Of a stretch of DNA of 40,528 nucleotides, positions 3,480 through 17,200 are shown in pieces (within the stretch, counting starts at the first letter, position 1; every line of letters begins with the position of its first letter). The notes under the pieces were generated by a model that was not told where the DNA came from, did not search any database, and saw nothing but the letters and a program-made list of their open reading frames with translations. Position numbers and translations under genes: made by a program. This stretch comes from Bacteroidales bacterium. GTDB taxonomy: Bacteria > Bacteroidota > Bacteroidia > Bacteroidales > PUMT01. The stretch spans positions 1 to 40,528 of the forward strand of contig SLPB01000069.1 in NCBI GenBank assembly GCA_007132225.1, read 5' to 3'.

Positions 3480-4832
3480 TTATTTCGGCCCATGGTATTT
3501 CAGGGCAAGGAAATAAACCGGAACGCCTGCGACTAAAATTCCGGCTCCGGCAATAGCACCGGCACCCGTGAATACCAGGCTCGAATAGAGCATGTAAATA
3601 CATGCAAGAAGGAATAAAACAGGAGGCAACGGGTATAAAGGAACCCGGTATGATCCGGGTACATGATCTTTACGGAACCGGAAAACAAACAGGCTGACCG
3701 TGGTAAGAAGTATAAATGTCCAGAATACCGGTGCGGTATAATCGACCATAGTGCTGACAGCCTGCTGTGACCATGCCCCGATACCCACAAGAACAAGGGC
3801 AATCACCCCCTGGAATATAAGAGCGTTAACCGGACTGTTACGGCGGGTGTTCCATCTTCCCATGAAGCCCAGAAGAGCGAAGTCCCTGCCTATTGCATAA
3901 TTTGTTCTGGCACCGGTTATTATAGTGGCATTGGCTGTAGACAAAGCAGCAATAACCACAATAATAACCACCAGTACCGACGCTCCCGGGCCAAATATTT
4001 TTTCTGTCAGATCAAATCCCACTGTTTGCGATTCCCTTAGTGCCTCAAAACCCAGAACATGAAGATAAGCAAGATTAATAAGTATATAGAGGGTAGTTAT
4101 TACAACTATCCCCATAACCAGCGCCCTTACAATGTTTCGTTTTACATTATGCAATTCTCCGGTAAGATAAGCTGCCTCGCTCCAGCCGCCATAAGTGAGC
4201 AGAACAAATATCATGGCCAGACCGGGAGCTCCTCCGGAAAAAAGTTCCGTATTTCTCCCCGAAAGGGTCAGCCCTGAAACAGCTCCCTCCCCTGACAAAT
4301 TAAGAAGACCAAAAACCGAAACTGCCAGAAGGGTAATTATAATAACAGAAGCAAGGATATTCTGTGTATTGCGGGAATGAACAGTTCCCAGAATATTAAG
4401 TCCGGTAAGGACAATGACAACAGCAGCAGCATACAGGGATGAGCTGTATGGTCCCAGGTCAAGTATCACGGTGGCATAGTCCCCAAGTATAAAAGCAACC
4501 AGTGCAACAGATCCTGTCTGTATAACAGTCATCCTTCCCCATGAAAGGAAAAAACCGGTGGCCGGTCCAAATGCTTTCCTGAGAAAAAAATATTCCCCGC
4601 CGGCATCCGGCATTGACGATGAGAGCTCGGCATAGCACAATGCCCCGGTAAGAGAAATTAATCCACCTGCAAGCCAGAAGAGCATGAACTGCAATTCATT
4701 TACAGAATTTGCTGCAACAATAGGGGGCAGCCGGAAAATACCTATGCCAATAACTATGCCAATGACCACAGTCATTGAGCTGAAAATTGTAAAAGACTTA
4801 AGCGGATGTTCTTTTTGAGAAGGTTGTCTCAT
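3480..4832 (-). CDS. APC superfamily amino-acid permease
   Basis: Inner-membrane amino acid/polyamine/organocation transporter with about 12 hydrophobic segments. The unwound TM1 motif is visible as GIVIGIGIFRLPP, and the TM3 region reads GALCYAELSSSMPDAGGEYFFL, split here between YAELSSSMP and AGGEYF; both are hallmarks of APC/LAT-type permeases. I place the start at the ATG that overlaps the stop of the upstream methyltransferase by four bases (ATGA), giving 450 residues; an in-frame ATG 24 bases earlier would make 458. The 3' end lies only two bases from the stop of the convergent RND gene. It has no C-terminal regulatory domain, unlike the APC permease near 39 kb. Substrate cannot be read from sequence; an amino acid or GABA-like compound is likely. 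Confidence 0.9.
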   Translation of the reverse strand: MRQPSQKEHPLKSFTIFSSMTVVIGIVIGIGIFRLPPIVAANSVNELQFMLFWLAGGLISLTGALCYAELSSSMPDAGGEYFFLRKAFGPATGFFLSWGRMTVIQTGSVALVAFILGDYATVILDLGPYSSSLYAAAVVIVLTGLNILGTVHSRNTQNILASVIIITLLAVSVFGLLNLSGEGAVSGLTLSGRNTELFSGGAPGLAMIFVLLTYGGWSEAAYLTGELHNVKRNIVRALVMGIVVITTLYILINLAYLHVLGFEALRESQTVGFDLTEKIFGPGASVLVVIIVVIAALSTANATIITGARTNYAIGRDFALLGFMGRWNTRRNSPVNALIFQGVIALVLVGIGAWSQQAVSTMVDYTAPVFWTFILLTTVSLFVFRFRKDHVPGSYRVPLYPLPPVLFLLACIYMLYSSLVFTGAGAIAGAGILVAGVPVYFLALKYHGPK

Positions 4833-5659
4833 CGCCTCTGCAGTGTGGCCGACCATACCTCTATATTCCGGGAATCACCGGAAACAATATGAGACATACC
4901 ACTTATATTATTCCCGTCAACTCTTCCGCTGAAAACATATCTATCCCCGCTATTCTTATCAGTGGCCATAAAACTTATTCTCTCACCCATAAGCAGAGGT
5001 TCCTCTATCTCAAATTTCCGTTTACCAGATACAAGGTCAATAAAAACTTTCTGAAACTCCTGTCCAGCACTCATTACGAACCTTTCACCACCGGTTTCCC
5101 ATTCCCATCTGCCTCTTAAGTTTGCTGGGATAACCCAGTAATACACATGCCGGTTATCGACCTGGACATGCTCATCGGCTTCCCATTCTCCCATGCTGAA
5201 GCTGTGTGAAACGATCCGTGTTCCGGGACGCAGTTCTTTCAAAAGAACAGGCCGGAGCTTCAAATTAACAGAACTTAATAAATACATGGTAATTACCGAG
5301 GCTTTACTGATATCAGTTTTAAAGAGATCTCCTTCAAGGAACACAACCCTGTTAAAAACCCCAGCTTCAATTGCATTCTCGTTTGCTTCCTTTACCCTGA
5401 CGGGATTGAGATCAACTCCATGGCCCAATGCCCCCCTTTTGGCAGCGGCAATAACGATCCGCCCGTCCCCTGAGCCAAGATCAATAACATAATCCCCGGG
5501 TCCAACATCGGTTATGTCGAGCATCCTCTCCACCACCTTTTCAGGAGTGGGCACATAGGGAACATCAAGATCCTGTGCATACCCTTTATTAACATTCACA
5601 AAAAACAAAGAGAGTATTACAGGGATTATAATAAACAGTCTGATTATAATATTTTTCAT
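4829..5659 (-). CDS. Exported class I SAM-methyltransferase, FAM173/ATPSCKMT-like
   Basis: 276 residues. A clear Sec signal peptide (KNIIIR, hydrophobic core, VNKGYA-Q, cleavage near residue 28) precedes a Rossmann methyltransferase domain. SAM motif I is VIDLGSGDGRIV (58-69), the ribose-binding acid is Asp83 in GVDLNP, and the family-specific YVPTP (35-39) and SHSFSMGEW (151-159) are those of the FAM173/ATPSCKMT lysine methyltransferases. A further C-terminal region of about 100 residues looks like a beta-rich accessory domain. It is the first gene of an operon with the APC permease (ATGA overlap). The oddity is location: SAM is cytoplasmic, yet the protein appears exported. Either it stays tethered by an uncleaved signal, or it does not use cytosolic SAM. 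Substrate unknown. Confidence 0.82.
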   Translation of the reverse strand: MKNIIIRLFIIIPVILSLFFVNVNKGYAQDLDVPYVPTPEKVVERMLDITDVGPGDYVIDLGSGDGRIVIAAAKRGALGHGVDLNPVRVKEANENAIEAGVFNRVVFLEGDLFKTDISKASVITMYLLSSVNLKLRPVLLKELRPGTRIVSHSFSMGEWEADEHVQVDNRHVYYWVIPANLRGRWEWETGGERFVMSAGQEFQKVFIDLVSGKRKFEIEEPLLMGERISFMATDKNSGDRYVFSGRVDGNNISGMSHIVSGDSRNIEVWSATLQRR

Positions 5660-5735
5660 AATTGAAAGTAATTAAAAAAACAGATTTAAAAACTTAGTGA
5701 TGCTAAGTTAATATAAACAGGCTAATTTAAGACCC

Positions 5736-5768
5736 CAAACATAATAAAAAGCTGATAATATTATCAAA
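5736..5768 (-). promoter_or_regulatory. Bacteroidota promoter with operator-like palindrome
   Basis: On the minus strand TTTG (5768-5765) is followed after 21 bases by TATGTTTG (5743-5736), matching the Bacteroidota primary-sigma pattern TTTG-N19 to N21-TAnnTTTG, about 75 bases before the methyltransferase start. A perfect 14-base palindrome, TGATAATATTATCA (5753-5766), overlaps the -33 box and fills half the spacer, the classic position for a repressor operator. The motif match and symmetry are seen; the regulatory role is inferred. Confidence 0.5.
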
Positions 5769-5882
5769 GCTATTACACGATATTATTTATAAAAAGATTC
5801 ATCCTAATAAAACAGGTTAATCAAATTAATAATCAAGAACTTATATTTTCAGGTAATTCAAAATAGGTGTTTCAAACGTATG

Positions 5883-5933
5883 AAACCCGCATGGTTTGTT
5901 CATGTTATTTTGTCTGCCGAAGGCTGATGAGGG
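5883..5933 (+). repeat. Leader-like repeat element, copy A
   Basis: Shares an exact 20-base block (5892-5911, core GGTTTGTTCATGTTATTT) with 13956-13975, embedded in a wider conserved frame: AAACC-N5-GGTTT, then the block, then two variable bases, CTGCC-N3-GGCT-N-ATG-N-GG. The five-base arms AAACC/GGTTT form a dyad whose loops differ (CGCAT here, TCCCT in copy B), and GCC-N3-GGC is a second small dyad with a different loop. Conserved arms and variable loops suggest a structured leader RNA or binding site rather than chance or coding identity. In copy B the conserved ATG is the start codon of a lipoprotein gene. Confidence 0.55.
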
Positions 5934-5937
5934 TTCC

Positions 5938-5991
5938 ATGCTAAAAAAACTACTGCCGTTTCTGCTGATTTTCCTGTATGTATTAACTTAA
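5938..5991 (+). pseudogene. 17-codon signal-peptide-like mini-ORF
   Basis: Directly after repeat copy A an ATG opens the frame MLKKLLPFLLIFLYVLT and then stops. It has the charged start and hydrophobic core of a signal peptide but no mature protein. The frame also extends back to an ATG at 5902 inside the repeat (29 codons). It may be the decayed start of a lost exported protein or a very small membrane peptide. Nothing homologous was recognised. Confidence 0.3.
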
Positions 5992-6086
5992 AAATGCATA
6001 AATTTATCTACTTAAATTAATAAGGCCGGTCAGGGCGGAGAAAATAATCCGGATAAGGTTTTATAACCCCTCTATAATGCACTATT

Positions 6087-7088
6087 ATGGAAAATAGCAT
6101 AAATTCAATAAAAGAATTACTTCCTGATGTTAATCCGGAGTTATTTGCCAGGCCAAATATGGTTGCAACCGGAATAGGTTATAAAAAAGTACAGGGTAAG
6201 AAAACAGGAGAAATTTGCATAGTATGCTCGGTTGAAACAAAAGTATCAAAGGCTGCACTTACTGAAAAAGAGCTAATACCACCAGTTATTCAGGGCATAC
6301 CAACAGATGTTCAGCCTAGCGGACTGGTTCACAGTCTGGGTTTGCCTACCGGAAGGTACAGGCCTGCACCCGGTGGCGTAAGCATTGGTCATGTACATAT
6401 CACAACCGGAACACTGGGGTGTCTTGTAGCCAGGAACGGGACAAAATATATACTCTCAAACAATCATGTGCTTGCTAATTCGAATCAGGCAAAAAAGGGA
6501 GACATAATACTTCAACCCGGACCCTATGATGGTGGTATAATACCCGATGATCAGATAGCAACACTTTCCGAATTCATCACAATACATTTTGAAAATGAAA
6601 TAAACAGCTGTCGTTTAGCAAATGCCTTCAAGGGCATTTTTAATTTTTTCGCAAAAATTTCGGGAAGCAGCGTACGGTTGTTTTCAAAAAAAATTAATCA
6701 AACATCAAACCTTGTTGATTGTGCAATTGCCAAACCACTGAATGAAGGTGACTTGATAAATGAAATTCTCAGGGTCGGCTCGATAACCGGATCTGCAGAA
6801 GGAATTCTTGATATGAAAGTAAAAAAGTCGGGTCGCACCACCGGTCTTACCAAAGGTGTGATCGAGCAGGTGAATGCAACTGTCAGGGTGAATTTCGGGG
6901 CCGGCAAAACAGCCATGTTCACCGACCAGCTTATTGCCGGATCGATGAGCCAGGGAGGAGACAGCGGCTCGATAGTGCTTAATGGAAAAAATGAGGTCGT
7001 CGGACTCCTTTTTGCGGGCAGTACCAATACCACAATTATTAACAGGATCCAGAATGTATTTGGCGAACTGGGTGTTACCCTTGTGTAA
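6087..7088 (+). CDS. Trypsin-fold serine protease without signal peptide (NAL1-like)
   Basis: 333 residues. A chymotrypsin-type catalytic triad is visible: His127 in LSNNHVLAN, Asp211 in LVDCAIAK and Ser293 in SQGGDSGSIV; a GCLVARNG strand precedes the histidine as in S1 proteases. The N-terminal 80 residues form a separate small domain (VATGIGYKKVQG to GIPTDVQPSG). There is no signal peptide, so it should act in the cytoplasm, unlike most bacterial S1 proteases; bacterial relatives of the plant NAL1 protease have this design. The next gene encodes a protein resembling only the N-terminal domain. Substrate unknown; the N-terminal domain could be a prodomain, regulator or adaptor. Family placement is by motif, and the triad makes protease activity likely. 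Confidence 0.8.
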   Translation: MENSINSIKELLPDVNPELFARPNMVATGIGYKKVQGKKTGEICIVCSVETKVSKAALTEKELIPPVIQGIPTDVQPSGLVHSLGLPTGRYRPAPGGVSIGHVHITTGTLGCLVARNGTKYILSNNHVLANSNQAKKGDIILQPGPYDGGIIPDDQIATLSEFITIHFENEINSCRLANAFKGIFNFFAKISGSSVRLFSKKINQTSNLVDCAIAKPLNEGDLINEILRVGSITGSAEGILDMKVKKSGRTTGLTKGVIEQVNATVRVNFGAGKTAMFTDQLIAGSMSQGGDSGSIVLNGKNEVVGLLFAGSTNTTIINRIQNVFGELGVTLV

Positions 7089-13133: not shown

Positions 13134-13595
13134 TTAATCCTGCTTCAGTAGCTTAACCCTTACAGCATTTGGTCCTTTCTGTCCCATTTCTGTCTCAAAG
13201 ATTACCCTGTCTCCTTCTGTAACCGGCTCAGTCAGGCCATGCACATGCACAAATACGCTTTCCTGGGTTTCATGATCCTTGATAAATCCGTATCCTTTGG
13301 AATCATTAAAGAAAGTGACAGTTCCTTTTCTGATCAGGTCGGCAGGATCAGGCTCTTCCTGTTTTGAAACACCTATTTCTATATCTTCGGCTCTTATTTT
13401 TTTCTTTTTACTGGGATCGGGAGGGGTTGATGTGATATTGCCATCTTCATCTACATAGGCCAGCATATCTTCAAGACTCTTTCCTTTTTCGGAGCCGGCT
13501 TTACGGTCTTCCTTCTTTTGCAGCTTTTCTTTCTTTTTCTTAAGCCTTTTCTTTTCTTTTTCTTTTTTGTTATAAGTTTCCTGTGATCTTCCCAT
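13134..13595 (-). CDS. Cold-shock-domain protein with lysine-rich N-terminal extension
   Basis: 153 residues. The C-terminal third (about 89-150) is a cold-shock domain: RNP1-like SKGYGFIKD (99-107) and RNP2-like VFVHVHGL (114-121), ending GPNAVRVKLL. It should bind single-stranded RNA or DNA as an RNA chaperone. The first 37 residues are an almost uninterrupted Lys/Glu/Arg helix (KKEKEKKRLKKKKEKLQKK), followed by an acidic linker. This two-part form is longer than the canonical 65-70 residue Csp proteins, and is seen in Bacteroidota. The basic extension may increase nucleic acid or ribosome binding (inference). It is transcribed divergently from the LamG lipoprotein gene; a TAGTTTTG box sits about 70 bases upstream but lacks a well-spaced -33 element. 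Confidence 0.9.
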   Translation of the reverse strand: MGRSQETYNKKEKEKKRLKKKKEKLQKKEDRKAGSEKGKSLEDMLAYVDEDGNITSTPPDPSKKKKIRAEDIEIGVSKQEEPDPADLIRKGTVTFFNDSKGYGFIKDHETQESVFVHVHGLTEPVTEGDRVIFETEMGQKGPNAVRVKLLKQD

Positions 13596-13990
13596 AATTT
13601 ATTTTTAGTGTCTATTAGTGTCTTTTATTGCTTTACCCTTATTTTGGTGTTCATCCCAATTGCAAAACTAATAAAAAACAACATTAGTATATTAATCTGT
13701 TTAAAAACAAATTGACAAATATTTAATTATTGATAAATTTGCCTGGGTCTCACTGATCAGTTTTTAAGCCTGAATAATAAATTAATTCCGGATATTAACC
13801 GTTATAACCGGCAGAATTGATTCAGGATGCATTATTAACCTGTAAAAAGAATTGTTTAAAAATCCATCCATATAACATGATTCTGAATTTCTGTAAAAAT
13901 TTGTCACAAAGCAATGCTCCCGTTATACAGTTTCTCTATTCTGACAAAACCTCCCTGGTTTGTTCATGTTATTTTAGCTGCCAGTGGCTT
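13596..13990. other. 395-base divergent gap with long leader
   Basis: Region between the cold-shock gene and the LamG gene. It contains the plus-strand promoter described above and the leader-like repeat copy B. The frame upstream of 13991 is open back to an ATG at 13817, but the extension translates to Cys-rich, non-protein-like sequence before the signal peptide, so I treat it as untranslated leader. Confidence 0.6.
13712..13741 (+). promoter_or_regulatory. Bacteroidota promoter of the LamG lipoprotein gene
   Basis: TTG (13712-13714), a 19-base spacer and TAAATTTG (13734-13741) match the Bacteroidota primary promoter pattern exactly. Predicted transcription would begin near 13748, giving an unusually long leader of about 240 bases before the ATG at 13991; that leader includes repeat copy B. 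Confidence 0.5.
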
Positions 13991-13997
13991 ATGGGGA
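13947..13997 (+). repeat. Leader-like repeat element, copy B
   Basis: Second copy of the element at 5883. The 20-base block 13956-13975 is identical; AAACC-N5-GGTTT (13947-13961) and CTGCC-N3-GGCT-N-ATG-N-GG (13978-13995) are kept at identical spacing. The conserved ATG here is position 13991, the start of a lipoprotein. In both copies the ATG lies 35 bases after the start of the block. A short ATG-TTA-TTT frame inside the element stops at once here (TAG) but stays open in copy A, so a conserved leader peptide is unlikely. Confidence 0.55.
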
Positions 13998-16900
13998 AAT
14001 CGTTCAAAAAGATTTACTCGTTTACTGGTTTATTAGTTACGTTGATTATAATTAGTTGTTCATCAGGATGGAGTCAGCAATCACCCGAACCGCCAGCGGG
14101 AATTATGGCTGGTCAGCCCGCTGGTCCTGGCGGTGCCGATGAACGCGGATTACTTTTTCGTTTATCAGGAAGGTATGGGTTTAATGCTAATTATGCTGCA
14201 GGCGGACAAACCCTGCCCAATTACCTTAGAAATGTGCAAATAACTGAAGACGGCCCCTACTGGCACGCTGTCGAAGCTGACGACTTCCCTCTTCTTTCAT
14301 ACTGGGCTCCCGGCAACATATACGCCCAGCGGGGCACCTTGTCGTTTTTCTGGCGCTCACACCATCCTGCCGGATCAAAGAGATTTCCAGTTTTTCATGC
14401 AGGTTTTTCCGATAATTCAGGAGAGGACAGGGTGTGGCTGAATATCGACTATAACGGTTCGGGATTTGATGTTTATTTAGCTGATGCCGGGCTTTCCCCT
14501 GCCCTTCTTTCTCACTACATGGATGAACCTCCAGGTCCTGATGAATGGGTACACCTTGCCATCTCATGGGACGAAACGGAAGGAATACATTTTTATATTA
14601 ACGGCATCCTGGTAGGGAAAAAATTTATACCCGGGTTGATATATGACACAGGGCTTGATCAGTTTGGACCATATTCCGGAATAACCAATCCTTATCATTT
14701 GCAAAACCGGTACGGTTCAGGTCGCGGGGGAGATGTTGCAGACCTGCGTATCTATGACCGTATGCTGTCAGATGAAAATGTCTTTACACTGGCCAGGGGG
14801 GAAAGAATTTTCGGGCTTTCTGATTTCAGACGAAATCTAATTAATCGCCGATGGCGGGATGCATGGTGGAAACGACATGGTTGGAACCTTCCCAATGAGG
14901 CACCCCCGGTGCTGGCTTCCTCAGGCACTTCGGTGCGGAAGGTGGAAATCAACAATGCCACAGATACAGGGCGCTGGTACTGGAAAGCCACTGACGGGAT
15001 TCGTGAAACTACATGGCCGGGCCCATGCAACATGTTGGAATTACCCGGAAGATATGACCACTTTGCCATGCCGGACGGGTACTGTTACTCCTGGTCCGGA
15101 CAGGCAATCCCCTTCAATGTTCAGGGCACTGAATCATGGAACCATATTGAGATATGGGGCAAAGCCCGGGGACAACTGACCCATGAAAATGAACATCCTT
15201 TCCATCATACCTTTGATGAAAGAGATAATAACCAGGTTAAATCTTACCATCGTCTGGAAGAGGCAAAAAAAGGGGGTGTAATCAGGTTTGACAACACCGT
15301 GAGCGCAGGGTCCATAGGTTCATTCATGGTATATGACGTAAAAGAGGGAATAGCACCGGCTGACAGGCATAAGGAGACTTTTACCCTGGTACCCGCACCC
15401 GTATCCGGAAGCCTGGGTTTAAGAGCGATGGATGAGGTAGCTGGTTTCATTTACGGCAGGTACCCGGCAGATGAGCGTACGATGATGACCGGGGTAGCGG
15501 AAGATGAAACACCCCCTGAAGAAACAGTTATATATAATCCTTACGCAATGCCGGTTATACATATAATCATTCCTTATTCAGACTTGCAGGATAAAGGACT
15601 GGACGGTATAGAAATTGAGTTGCCTGAAATGAATGTTAAACCAACTCACAAAGAGGTTTTCCCTTTAAACCTTCGCATCAAGGATCCTTTATGGCAGATG
15701 CGGGATCTGGCTGATTTTAGTTTCTCCATAGAACCGGGTAAGAAATACAGGCTGTGGATTGATACAAGGGACCGCATACTTCCCCGGGGCCGGGCTCTTT
15801 ATCTTACCCTGGCCGGGGCCGGCCAGGATCTGACGCCGGAAATTCTGAAGGGTGCAAAGGTAAGTCTTGTTTACAAATCCAAAGATGAGGCACTTGCAGA
15901 GCATATAAAAGACCGCTTCAACCAGGTCAGGGACCTCCATGCCCATAATGTGGAAAAAAATATTCATTCACCTAGGGTCAACAGGTACAACCGGTTTTAT
16001 GCCGACCTTCAGGATATATTGATCCACGATCCCGGCAACTGGCTTGCAAAAACATACTGGTATTACATTTCAGGCGATAAAAGCGACCGTCCTGAATATG
16101 AGATCAACAAAGCCCCCGAAGGTATTCCCGGGTGGGCTCATCTTCAGGTTGAATATTTAAGGCACCTGGAACGGGTAGTAATGTATAACATCAATGACTG
16201 GCAGGGCGGTAATATTGATTTTAGTGGCAGACCTGCAGATAACACCTCCCCGTTCAAACAAAAAAAACTTCCTCTCTTAAACAGAATTTCAACAATTAAA
16301 ACCGATGAGCCCCATACTTTCATCAGGGACGTAAAGGTTATAAGTAATCCCCGGCCCATTGAACACAGCATGCCTGCACGTTTCAACCCTGATGAACTGA
16401 TAACATTTTATACCGAAGAGATAAAAGAACTGGGCGTGCACGAATATATTAATACTAAGGGTGGTATCCTTACAGATCATATATTACTGGGACAGGATAT
16501 TATTCAAAAACACCGGTCAGGTGCTATTCCAATGATAGAAACAGAAAATAGATATGCACGGAATTTTGCAAGTTGGGAGATTCATAAACCCGGGAGTTAT
16601 GAAAGTTTAGCAATATTCATAACTAAAGCCAATGAGAATTCAATAAATATTGTCACTTATAATCTGGAGAAGGGTGCTGTTCACGCCAGTATGACCCCCG
16701 GGCATATAATCCCCGGGAGATGGCGTGTCATTCAGGGAACCGACACTAACGGCAACCAGGAGATTGACAGCCACTATTCGGAAAAGATTATTGAACTAAA
16801 GAGCGGAGAAAAGCTAGGGCTGACTTTCATGCCGCGTCAACATACCATTATCCAGATGGAGCTTATAGAACCTCATCCCATAGAATACCAGAGAAGAGCA

Positions 16901-17200
16901 GATCTGGGAATAGGCAAAAATGATATTAAGATTGATGGTAACGGGGTGGTCGTTCGCATTCACAGCCTTGGTGAGGCTGATGTTCCGGAAACAACTGCTG
17001 AGCTCAGGGATTCTGAGGGAAATATTGTTGTCACCAAAAAAATTCCTTCACTGGAAGCTCCCCTGGACCTTGTTCCCAGTTGGACAGAGATAAGAATGGA
17101 GGTGCCCGAAGGCACTGACATAAGCAGGGGGAGTGTAATCATAGATCCCCATCAAATGATCCCGCAAATATCCAGGACAAATACAATTGTAAAATGGTAA
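13991..17200 (+). CDS. Large LamG-domain lipoprotein, function unknown
   Basis: 1069 residues from the chosen ATG, which begins a good signal peptide (MGKSFKKIY, hydrophobic core, LIIISC); Cys23 fits a lipobox, though cleavage after GWS is an alternative. A LamG/concanavalin-like domain spans about residues 50-275, with the hallmarks GTLSFFWRSH, WLNIDYNG, DEWVHLAISWDETEGIHFYING and VADLRIYDRMLSDEN. The central 600 residues are not recognised; they hold beta-rich parts and a helical part around HDPGNWLAKTYWYY. The C-terminal 85 residues look like a CARDB-type beta-sandwich (ADVPETTAELRDSEGNIVV onwards). It is likely exposed on the outer membrane or in the periplasm and binds carbohydrate; enzyme activity is not evident. 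The OFA transporter follows after 30 bases and is probably co-transcribed. Confidence 0.8.
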   Translation: MGKSFKKIYSFTGLLVTLIIISCSSGWSQQSPEPPAGIMAGQPAGPGGADERGLLFRLSGRYGFNANYAAGGQTLPNYLRNVQITEDGPYWHAVEADDFPLLSYWAPGNIYAQRGTLSFFWRSHHPAGSKRFPVFHAGFSDNSGEDRVWLNIDYNGSGFDVYLADAGLSPALLSHYMDEPPGPDEWVHLAISWDETEGIHFYINGILVGKKFIPGLIYDTGLDQFGPYSGITNPYHLQNRYGSGRGGDVADLRIYDRMLSDENVFTLARGERIFGLSDFRRNLINRRWRDAWWKRHGWNLPNEAPPVLASSGTSVRKVEINNATDTGRWYWKATDGIRETTWPGPCNMLELPGRYDHFAMPDGYCYSWSGQAIPFNVQGTESWNHIEIWGKARGQLTHENEHPFHHTFDERDNNQVKSYHRLEEAKKGGVIRFDNTVSAGSIGSFMVYDVKEGIAPADRHKETFTLVPAPVSGSLGLRAMDEVAGFIYGRYPADERTMMTGVAEDETPPEETVIYNPYAMPVIHIIIPYSDLQDKGLDGIEIELPEMNVKPTHKEVFPLNLRIKDPLWQMRDLADFSFSIEPGKKYRLWIDTRDRILPRGRALYLTLAGAGQDLTPEILKGAKVSLVYKSKDEALAEHIKDRFNQVRDLHAHNVEKNIHSPRVNRYNRFYADLQDILIHDPGNWLAKTYWYYISGDKSDRPEYEINKAPEGIPGWAHLQVEYLRHLERVVMYNINDWQGGNIDFSGRPADNTSPFKQKKLPLLNRISTIKTDEPHTFIRDVKVISNPRPIEHSMPARFNPDELITFYTEEIKELGVHEYINTKGGILTDHILLGQDIIQKHRSGAIPMIETENRYARNFASWEIHKPGSYESLAIFITKANENSINIVTYNLEKGAVHASMTPGHIIPGRWRVIQGTDTNGNQEIDSHYSEKIIELKSGEKLGLTFMPRQHTIIQMELIEPHPIEYQRRADLGIGKNDIKIDGNGVVVRIHSLGEADVPETTAELRDSEGNIVVTKKIPSLEAPLDLVPSWTEIRMEVPEGTDISRGSVIIDPHQMIPQISRTNTIVKW

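Follow-up and report, generated by a model that had tools for sequence, protein, structure and literature searches.

Two related elements in a Bacteroidales contig

The window, by which we mean the whole stretch of 40,528 nucleotides analysed here, carries two related elements that we refer to as copies A and B. Copy A lies in intergenic DNA by a methyltransferase gene (4829-5659), and copy B overlaps the start of a gene encoding a lipoprotein-like protein. A preliminary description had drawn attention to a 20-base block at 5892-5911 that recurs identically at 13956-13975, and to the surrounding pattern AAACC-N5-GGTTT ... CTGCC-N3-GGCT-N-ATG-N-GG. Re-reading of 5400-6600 and 13500-14600 bears out both the identity and the equal spacing of the pattern in the two copies. 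The pattern is real, but it is one end of a larger unit, composed of a left end (LE) and a right-end (RE) hairpin, with the following features in the window:

5798..5802, forward strand: TTCAT on the left flank of copy A, the insertion site (reverse complement ATGAA)
5803..5939, forward strand: copy A, a complete 137-bp unit, delimited by the full-unit profile and by the unit size at empty sites
5803..5879, forward strand: copy A's LE, assigned to the CCTAATAAAACAGG type by alignment with other units
5807..5814, reverse strand: candidate promoter-like TRnnTTRY box, TGTTTTAT, located at -12 to -5 relative to the ATG of the reverse strand
5834..5836, reverse strand: candidate promoter-like TTG at -34 to -32, 19 nt from the TRnnTTRY box
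5880..5939, forward strand: RE hairpin of copy A, with outer arms 5880-5892 and 5927-5939
5893..5913, forward strand: conserved unpaired strand GGTTTGTTCATGTTATTTTGT, which contains an internal TTCAT and most of the 20-base block
5916..5924, forward strand: inner hairpin GCC-GAA-GGC of copy A, with compensatory CG/AU changes at the middle pair
13944..14003, forward strand: copy B, a decayed RE hairpin, from the covariance model R1
13864..14005, forward strand: outer limits that copy B may have if a decayed LE is counted in, tentatively from the full-unit profile
13991..17200, forward strand: gene encoding the lipoprotein-like protein (1069 aa), an ORF with a Laminin_G_3 domain

The AAACC/GGTTT dyad had been taken for a conserved stem, which is incorrect: intact copies pair 5880-5892 with 5927-5939 and 5916-5918 with 5922-5924, and GGTTTGTTCATGTTATTTTGT is the conserved unpaired strand of the hairpin, not a stem arm. 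In the window, the 19-mer GGTTTGTTCATGTTATTTT (at most 3 mismatches) occurs at two places, copies A and B only; shuffled windows (n=100) contain 0.02 on average, and none reaches two.

Copy A matches the full-unit profile over 1-144 (E 1.7e-33, with copy A within the training set of the profile), and its RE hairpin scores 83.1 bits against R1, a model that contains copy A. Against R1, which was built without copy B, the RE of that copy reaches 31.9 bits, with an E of 3.4e-5 over the window. Its match to the full-unit profile (E 9.4e-21) comes from a profile with copy B in its training set, so the extent given for copy B (13864..14005) is tentative. Folded as DNA and compared with shuffles, copy A has a z of -0.94 and copy B a z of -0.10, the latter no better than shuffles. 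Copy A is an intact intergenic unit, and copy B, given its lower score and its shuffle-like fold, is a relic. The ATG (13991) of the gene encoding the lipoprotein-like protein sits within the 3' arm of the decayed copy B, and a search of the other 15 genomes of the family at E<=1e-10 identified no relatives of the encoded protein (13991-17200). The TTCAT at 5798..5802 opens a frame of only nine codons, and copy A is therefore not located at the start of a gene. Elsewhere in the window, 6087-7088 may encode a trypsin-like protease, with matches to NAL1-type and Trypsin_2 domains below cut-offs only.

The methyltransferase gene by copy A has orthologues that are 62-68% identical within the family. 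The intergenic DNA beside these orthologues could not be lined up, and no empty site for copy A was obtained from it. Upstream of the methyltransferase orthologue, genome G301 has 33 nt of LE only (L151) and G150 has a separate unit (L161). Both lie at the start codon of the orthologue, which is repeated insertion at one gene.

Anatomy of the unit

Alignment of copies defines a unit of approximately 137 bp, in which an LE of about 77 bp directly follows TTCAT or a close variant and is itself followed by the 60-bp RE hairpin. LEs are of several types (for example TCGTATAAAGTATAGTTAGC, ACGAATAAACTATTGTTATC and CCTAATAAAACAGGTTAATC). Exact TTCAT precedes 93 of the 111 distinct units with readable left flanks. 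The end of a unit was taken as the listed ending nearest the expected place, which leaves 15 of the 111 units without one; TTCAT closes 85 of the other 96. The median length of these 96 units is 137, a value that leans on the nearest-ending rule, as the empty sites described below do not. The left and right ends of the units differ, that is, there are no terminal inverted repeats. Head-to-tail arrays are formed by 27 of the 111 units, classed as following another unit; this class partly demands a TTCAT ending, and its 27/27 TTCAT is therefore not an independent count. One unit after a hairpin remnant ending in ATCAT (L077) was counted as 'other'.

Several variants of this organization were observed. 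Composite units have an extra hairpin module between LE and RE (TCACATC...GCATGTGAGATC together with GACCGCAGGTC or GACGAAGTC) and occur at L034:4645-4810, L175, L176, L182, L206, L208 and L114. A second left-end family (type d, of the AAGTAAATATTAATATTAAATC type; e.g., L014:1337, L129, L202, L208) also abuts start codons; 16 were found, with four at a start, nine after a unit (undercounted by the rule used) and three at other places. At L001:1394-1613, two inverted units apparently have one hairpin in common. Finally, among 26 RE-only copies, 15 were inspected, and six of these (L184, L195, L196, L197, L207 and L028) follow a co-directional ORF, 10-49 nt behind its stop codon. These hairpins may serve as terminators or may occupy a position like that of attC in a cassette.

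The folding of the RE was evaluated in two alignments of mutually related rows. The first (A2) holds 39 hairpins chosen by hand from 55 listed ones and copies near them; the second (A3) is a cleaner set of 31 rows obtained by dropping eight, copy B among them. RNAalifold predicted no structure on A2, and the pairs of a specified 16-pair structure were counted in place of its prediction. In the 39 hairpins, 87.9% of cells are paired and eight pairs are changed on both sides. The preliminary description had proposed a covariance model and a search for compensatory changes, and these reveal covarying stems: the covariation score is 0.219 against 0.104 shuffled for the 39 rows (slid versions at most 0.055) and 0.181 against 0.075 for the 31 rows (slid versions at most 0.057), with none of 500 shuffles reaching the observed score in either alignment. 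The number of pairs changed on both sides was reached by four (39 rows) and 15 (31 rows) of 500 shuffles, and further pair types show no excess over shuffles (reached by 126/500 and 149/500). Covariation is clearest at two places, the tenth pair of the outer stem (GC, CG, UA) and the central pair of the inner one (CG, AU). A consensus-like hairpin (L100) folded as DNA has a z of -3.58. The hairpin is real, and both of its stems keep their pairing through compensatory changes. In two hairpins (L087 and L090), the 5' and 3' arms are mismatched and come from different subtypes, which suggests that two hairpins were spliced or exchanged at the internal TTCAT.

Copy number and host range

Across the whole genome that supplied the window, the core has 38 matches (at most 3 mismatches), 21 of them exact, compared to three for a reversed control. 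Many copies are at contig ends, so the repeat probably breaks the assembly of this genome. R1 matches (E<=0.01) occur in 16 of 16 family genomes from two genera, with from at least 7 to at least 67 in each; 150 first-look candidates were scored per family genome, and these counts may be low. Family genomes judged not to have supplied rows to the model have from at least 8 to at least 63. The outcome that would have spoken against the preliminary description, namely two copies only and none in relatives, did not arise.

The order was sampled with 295 genomes, and 22 of them contain a match to the core. Four of these are family members, with 40, 23, 15 and 4 matches, and the remaining 18, from outside the family, have one match each. 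The reversed control gave 15 matches in 12 genomes of the same sample, and since the single matches resemble it, the core occurs outside the family at about chance level. Four named records with exact matches to the pattern are Bacteroidales MAGs with isolate names beginning CSSed. Viral contigs gave nine exact matches to the 19-mer, none with the 5' arm, and no match to the LE pattern; one of the nine (L261) matches the RE profile at 32-73 with an E of 8e-5. We found no description of such units in the open-licence PMC literature. These mobile units with a hairpin end constitute a new family, seen to date in a single family of Bacteroidales.

Empty sites

Genome G038 and its close relative G304 share 88% DNA identity in long collinear pieces. 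The G304 region that matches L084 is without three units present in G038, a difference of 411 nt, or 3 x 137. In G304, the upstream sequence ...ATAGCAA runs directly into ATGAAACATTTATC; in G038, the 411-nt array lies between them, exactly before the start codon, and has ATGAA on either side. G304 also lacks another unit of this region, 137 nt long, which is flanked by TTTAT and TTCAA, not by TTCAT. The two empty sites in G304 show that the units are mobile, with precise loss in G304 as a formal alternative.

Target site and start codons

TTCAT is ATGAA on the other strand, so many insertions fall between the upstream region of a gene and its start codon. Among 66 units at a host TTCAT, 42 abut the ATG of an ORF of at least 60 codons (40 if open at the contig end). 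We compared this with other non-coding TTCAT sites, using simple ORF rules in all start-codon counts. An initial comparison gave 117 of 417 other sites (28%; p 4e-8), with a gene rule stricter than that used for the units. Under an equal rule of at least 80 codons, the counts are 38/66 units and 183/481 other sites (38%; odds ratio 2.2, p 0.003). Equal rules of 60 and 150 codons give 40/66 against 232/521 (p 0.018) and 34/66 against 138/438 (p 0.002), respectively. The excess of units at start codons is thus present but modest.

Targets that could be named by profile include murA (at TCCAT), rpiB and ruvC, matched from protein residue 1 to 7 on. The start of pfkA is adjoined by the type d left end, and that of pth by an LE without a hairpin. 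MurA, Pth and similar proteins are essential.

The preliminary description had also linked the element to exported proteins and expected copies to cluster before signal-peptide genes. By a crude rule, signal-peptide-like N-termini occur at 23 of 45 gene-start units and at 39 of 104 unit-free ORFs starting with ATGAA (p 0.15), and murA, rpiB and ruvC are among the targets; the units are not specific to exported proteins. The apparent association is explained by the target itself, since ATGAA gives proteins with Met-Lys or Met-Asn starts.

The left end as a possible promoter

Reading outward from the unit, two boxes stand at fixed distances from the A of the ATG. Of 111 units, 87 have TRnnTTRY precisely at -12 to -5, 76 have TTG precisely at -34 to -32, and 62 have both in exact register; these are counts from related sequences and are not independent. 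Adjacent registers are near zero. In the other 23 registers, TRnnTTRY does not exceed 4/111, and TTG has a secondary peak of 18. For comparison, published work gives a -7 box in Flavobacterium johnsoniae (TAnnTTTG, -12 to -5 from the transcription start; PMC6847099) and a variant in F. psychrophilum (TAnnTTGY, at the same positions; PMC9723704), together with a deduced Bacteroidota -33 element TTTG that is much less evident in F. johnsoniae (PMC6847099). The LE differs from the published boxes at -6, which is mostly A in the units, T in the sigma-A boxes and G in the SM5 boxes. If the LE is a promoter, the register of the boxes would place the transcription start at the A of the AUG.

The boxes are equally common at gene starts (26/45 units), at other host sites (21/39) and in arrays (15/27). 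Because they are as common away from genes as at gene starts, they may serve mobility instead, and a stronger conservation of the LE at gene starts was not seen (p 0.17). A TTG at -34 is found in none of ten left-end-only copies, which comprise nine newly read places in the genome of the window and L151. In this genome, seven of nine host-abutting copies with an LE and no complete RE are at the starts of ORFs of 145-431 aa; the nine come from 15 newly read places (of 48 LE matches in the genome), and the search pattern favours ATGAA. The motif was also considered as an ordinary native promoter and rejected, as it scores at least 4 at 1/401 unit-free gene starts and at 2/2758 control ATGs, one of these two scoring above 10. 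Equal ORF rules leave only a modest excess at start codons, and this lowers the odds of the promoter reading. We place the probability that the LE is an outward promoter a little under one half.

Candidate enzymes and comparison with known systems

The fixed left target, right hairpin, repeated target letters, arrays and lack of inverted repeats would suit an enzyme that acts on folded single strands. A Y1 transposase (PF01797) has no match in the genome of the window (G000) and none in 9 of the 16 family genomes in all. These PF01797-free carriers include the four genomes richest in R1 matches (G000, at least 67; G296, at least 63; G306, at least 53; G302, at least 50). In the seven family genomes with PF01797, the loci of these matches contain no RE match. 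Five of them, L106-L110 in five relatives, are IS200-type fragments, in which pieces from the C-terminal third of the transposase are followed by a hairpin that differs from the RE. A Y1 transposase was rejected as the mover, being either absent or present without these unit ends. A reverse transcriptase was also rejected, with matches in only 5/16 family genomes, three of them over the cut-off. Genomes without a match number 9/16 for Y1, 11/16 for reverse transcriptase and 7/16 for both. Inspection by eye of the ORFs beside seven RE matches without a complete LE identified no transposase-like gene bracketed by unit ends, as autonomous copies would have.

Like IS200/IS605 elements and their derivatives, the units insert 3' of a short fixed sequence, have a hairpin end and lack terminal inverted repeats. 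Unlike them, the letters at the right cut equal the target and lie inside a stem, the units form arrays, the 60-bp hairpin has a conserved 20-nt internal loop, and Y1 is unmatched in 9/16 carrier genomes. With respect to a fixed 3' target, one empty site is cut exactly before ATGAA and the other is at the TTTAT/TTCAA variant. As for hairpins at both ends, the RE forms one, and the only LE folded (that of copy A) has a z of 0.92, no better than shuffles. REP/REPIN sequences with RAYT subclass 2.6 (PMC6006769) are likewise dispersed intergenic Bacteroidota hairpins of atypical structure; the present units are set apart from them by description, not by hairpin sequence, as two-part units of 137 bp with a fixed TTCAT. 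By PF01797 only, a RAYT gene has no match in 9/16 carrier genomes, G000 included. A GT[AG]G foot is not present: 0/39 aligned hairpins begin with GTAG or GTGG, and most begin with ATGGA or ATGAA.

Integron cassettes carry attC, a folded site with a paired stem and the R'/R'' core GTTRRRY / RYYYAAC, and occur in head-to-tail arrays. The units are similar in having a folded site with a paired stem, cut letters in the stem and head-to-tail arrays. They differ in their TTCAT core, in having no gene inside and in being dispersed. Their conserved core is TTCAT/ATGRA, and several hairpins end in GATTCAT or GCTTCAT without GTT, unlike the attC core. Unlike classical MITEs (DDE), the units have ends that differ from each other, and their flank letters are mostly the fixed TTCAT with no variable target duplication. 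The BrickBuilt MITE of Porphyromonas gingivalis is also a short Bacteroidota mobile repeat, with segments of reported promoter activity. Its ends are inverted repeats, it contains tandem 23-nt repeats, and its distance from genes is 49-591 nt (PMC4596501); the present units lack inverted repeats at their ends and are often directly adjacent to the start codon. The units behave like a derivative of IS200/IS605 or like an integron cassette without a gene, yet they lack a tested defining feature of each.

Alternative explanations

The preliminary description had offered a leader RNA, a binding site or an interspersed repeat tied to exported proteins. Of these options, the interspersed repeat stands, on the 38 genome matches, the presence in 16/16 family genomes and the covarying stems. 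A leader RNA or riboswitch-like element before genes for exported proteins has become very improbable and is largely refuted. An RNA would be consistent with the conserved hairpin, its compensatory changes and its conserved unpaired letters, and copy B lies at the start of the gene encoding the lipoprotein-like protein. However, no Rfam match at the gathering threshold occurs in the window, and, the decayed copy B excepted, gene-start units point away from the gene that they abut (divergent orientation). The units also form arrays and show clean empty sites, and the genes at which they lie include murA, rpiB and ruvC, with no significant signal-peptide excess over ORFs starting with ATGAA. Evenly balanced, in our judgement, is the view that the units are parasites only: their placement at start codons would reflect the target letters and selection against gene disruption, the LE would have no promoter function, and a gene would still be transcribed from its former promoter, by read-through of the unit. 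Gene starts are frequent among the other non-coding TTCAT sites (28% under the gene-call rule and 32-45% under equal ORF rules), the G038 site keeps the old upstream region with TATATTTG beyond the array, and units away from genes equal the others in LE conservation and in boxes. What speaks against this view is that the boxes occupy the precise register that a start at the A would require, and that the host-abutting LE copies without a complete RE are mostly (7/9) at ORF starts, though the search pattern favours ATGAA.

As to ancestry, it is conceivable, though we would not bet on it, that the units derive from an IS200/IS605-type (Y1) or REP/RAYT element whose transposase is lost or lies on unassembled DNA. 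The site 3' of a fixed pentanucleotide, the hairpin end and the lack of terminal inverted repeats fit such an origin, as does a Bacteroidetes-specific Y1 subclass (2.6), for which PMC6006769 describes atypical hairpins copied elsewhere in the genome. The carriers without PF01797 include the four with the most R1 matches, the transposase fragments of relatives have other ends, the hairpins lack the GT[AG]G foot, and the cut letters lie inside a stem, all of which speak against it. Integron-like movement, with the RE as an attC-like folded site for a tyrosine recombinase and the units as tiny gene-less cassettes, appears unlikely. In integron cassettes, attC is located shortly after the stop codon of the gene, the place that the RE-only copies occupy behind co-directional stops (10-49 nt; 6/15 inspected), and the units share head-to-tail arrays (27/111) and cut letters within a paired stem with such cassettes. 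The core, however, is TTCAT and not GTTRRRY, and many units stand alone at scattered sites instead of sharing one platform.

A hairpin-recognised mobile unit and its implications

We consider that copies A and B are short, non-autonomous, hairpin-recognised mobile units of approximately 137 bp (probability about 0.76), possibly a mobile promoter for leaderless mRNA. In the mechanism that we propose from the sequence comparisons, a trans-acting enzyme would recognise the hairpin on single-stranded DNA, cut after TTCAT and join the segment to another TTCAT, as in IS200/IS605 or integron-cassette recombination. The usual TTCAT ending of the unit lets further units stack head to tail. With less assurance, the LE may act as an outward promoter with its start point at the A of AUG, in which case the host gene would survive with a leaderless mRNA and insertion would be tolerated even at housekeeping genes. 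The extension of this to a family-wide mobile promoter, in which the unit inserts precisely at ATGAA starts, replaces the proximal 5' region of the gene, drives transcription from the A of AUG to yield a leaderless gene and is moved by a putative single-strand recombinase, is tentative, and we hold it to be somewhat doubtful.

If the promoter reading is true, the unit would be a selfish element that lands before genes without killing them, with the start point in register, and it would offer a natural system for promoter swaps at single-base precision. It would also supply leaderless genes to a phylum in which mRNAs of this kind are uncommon; in Flavobacterium psychrophilum, they make up 5.5% of the mRNAs examined (PMC9723704). 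Even without a promoter, the presence of a hairpin-ended, array-forming unit in 16/16 genomes, many of them without a match to a Y1 transposase or reverse transcriptase, suggests a mobility enzyme that awaits discovery.
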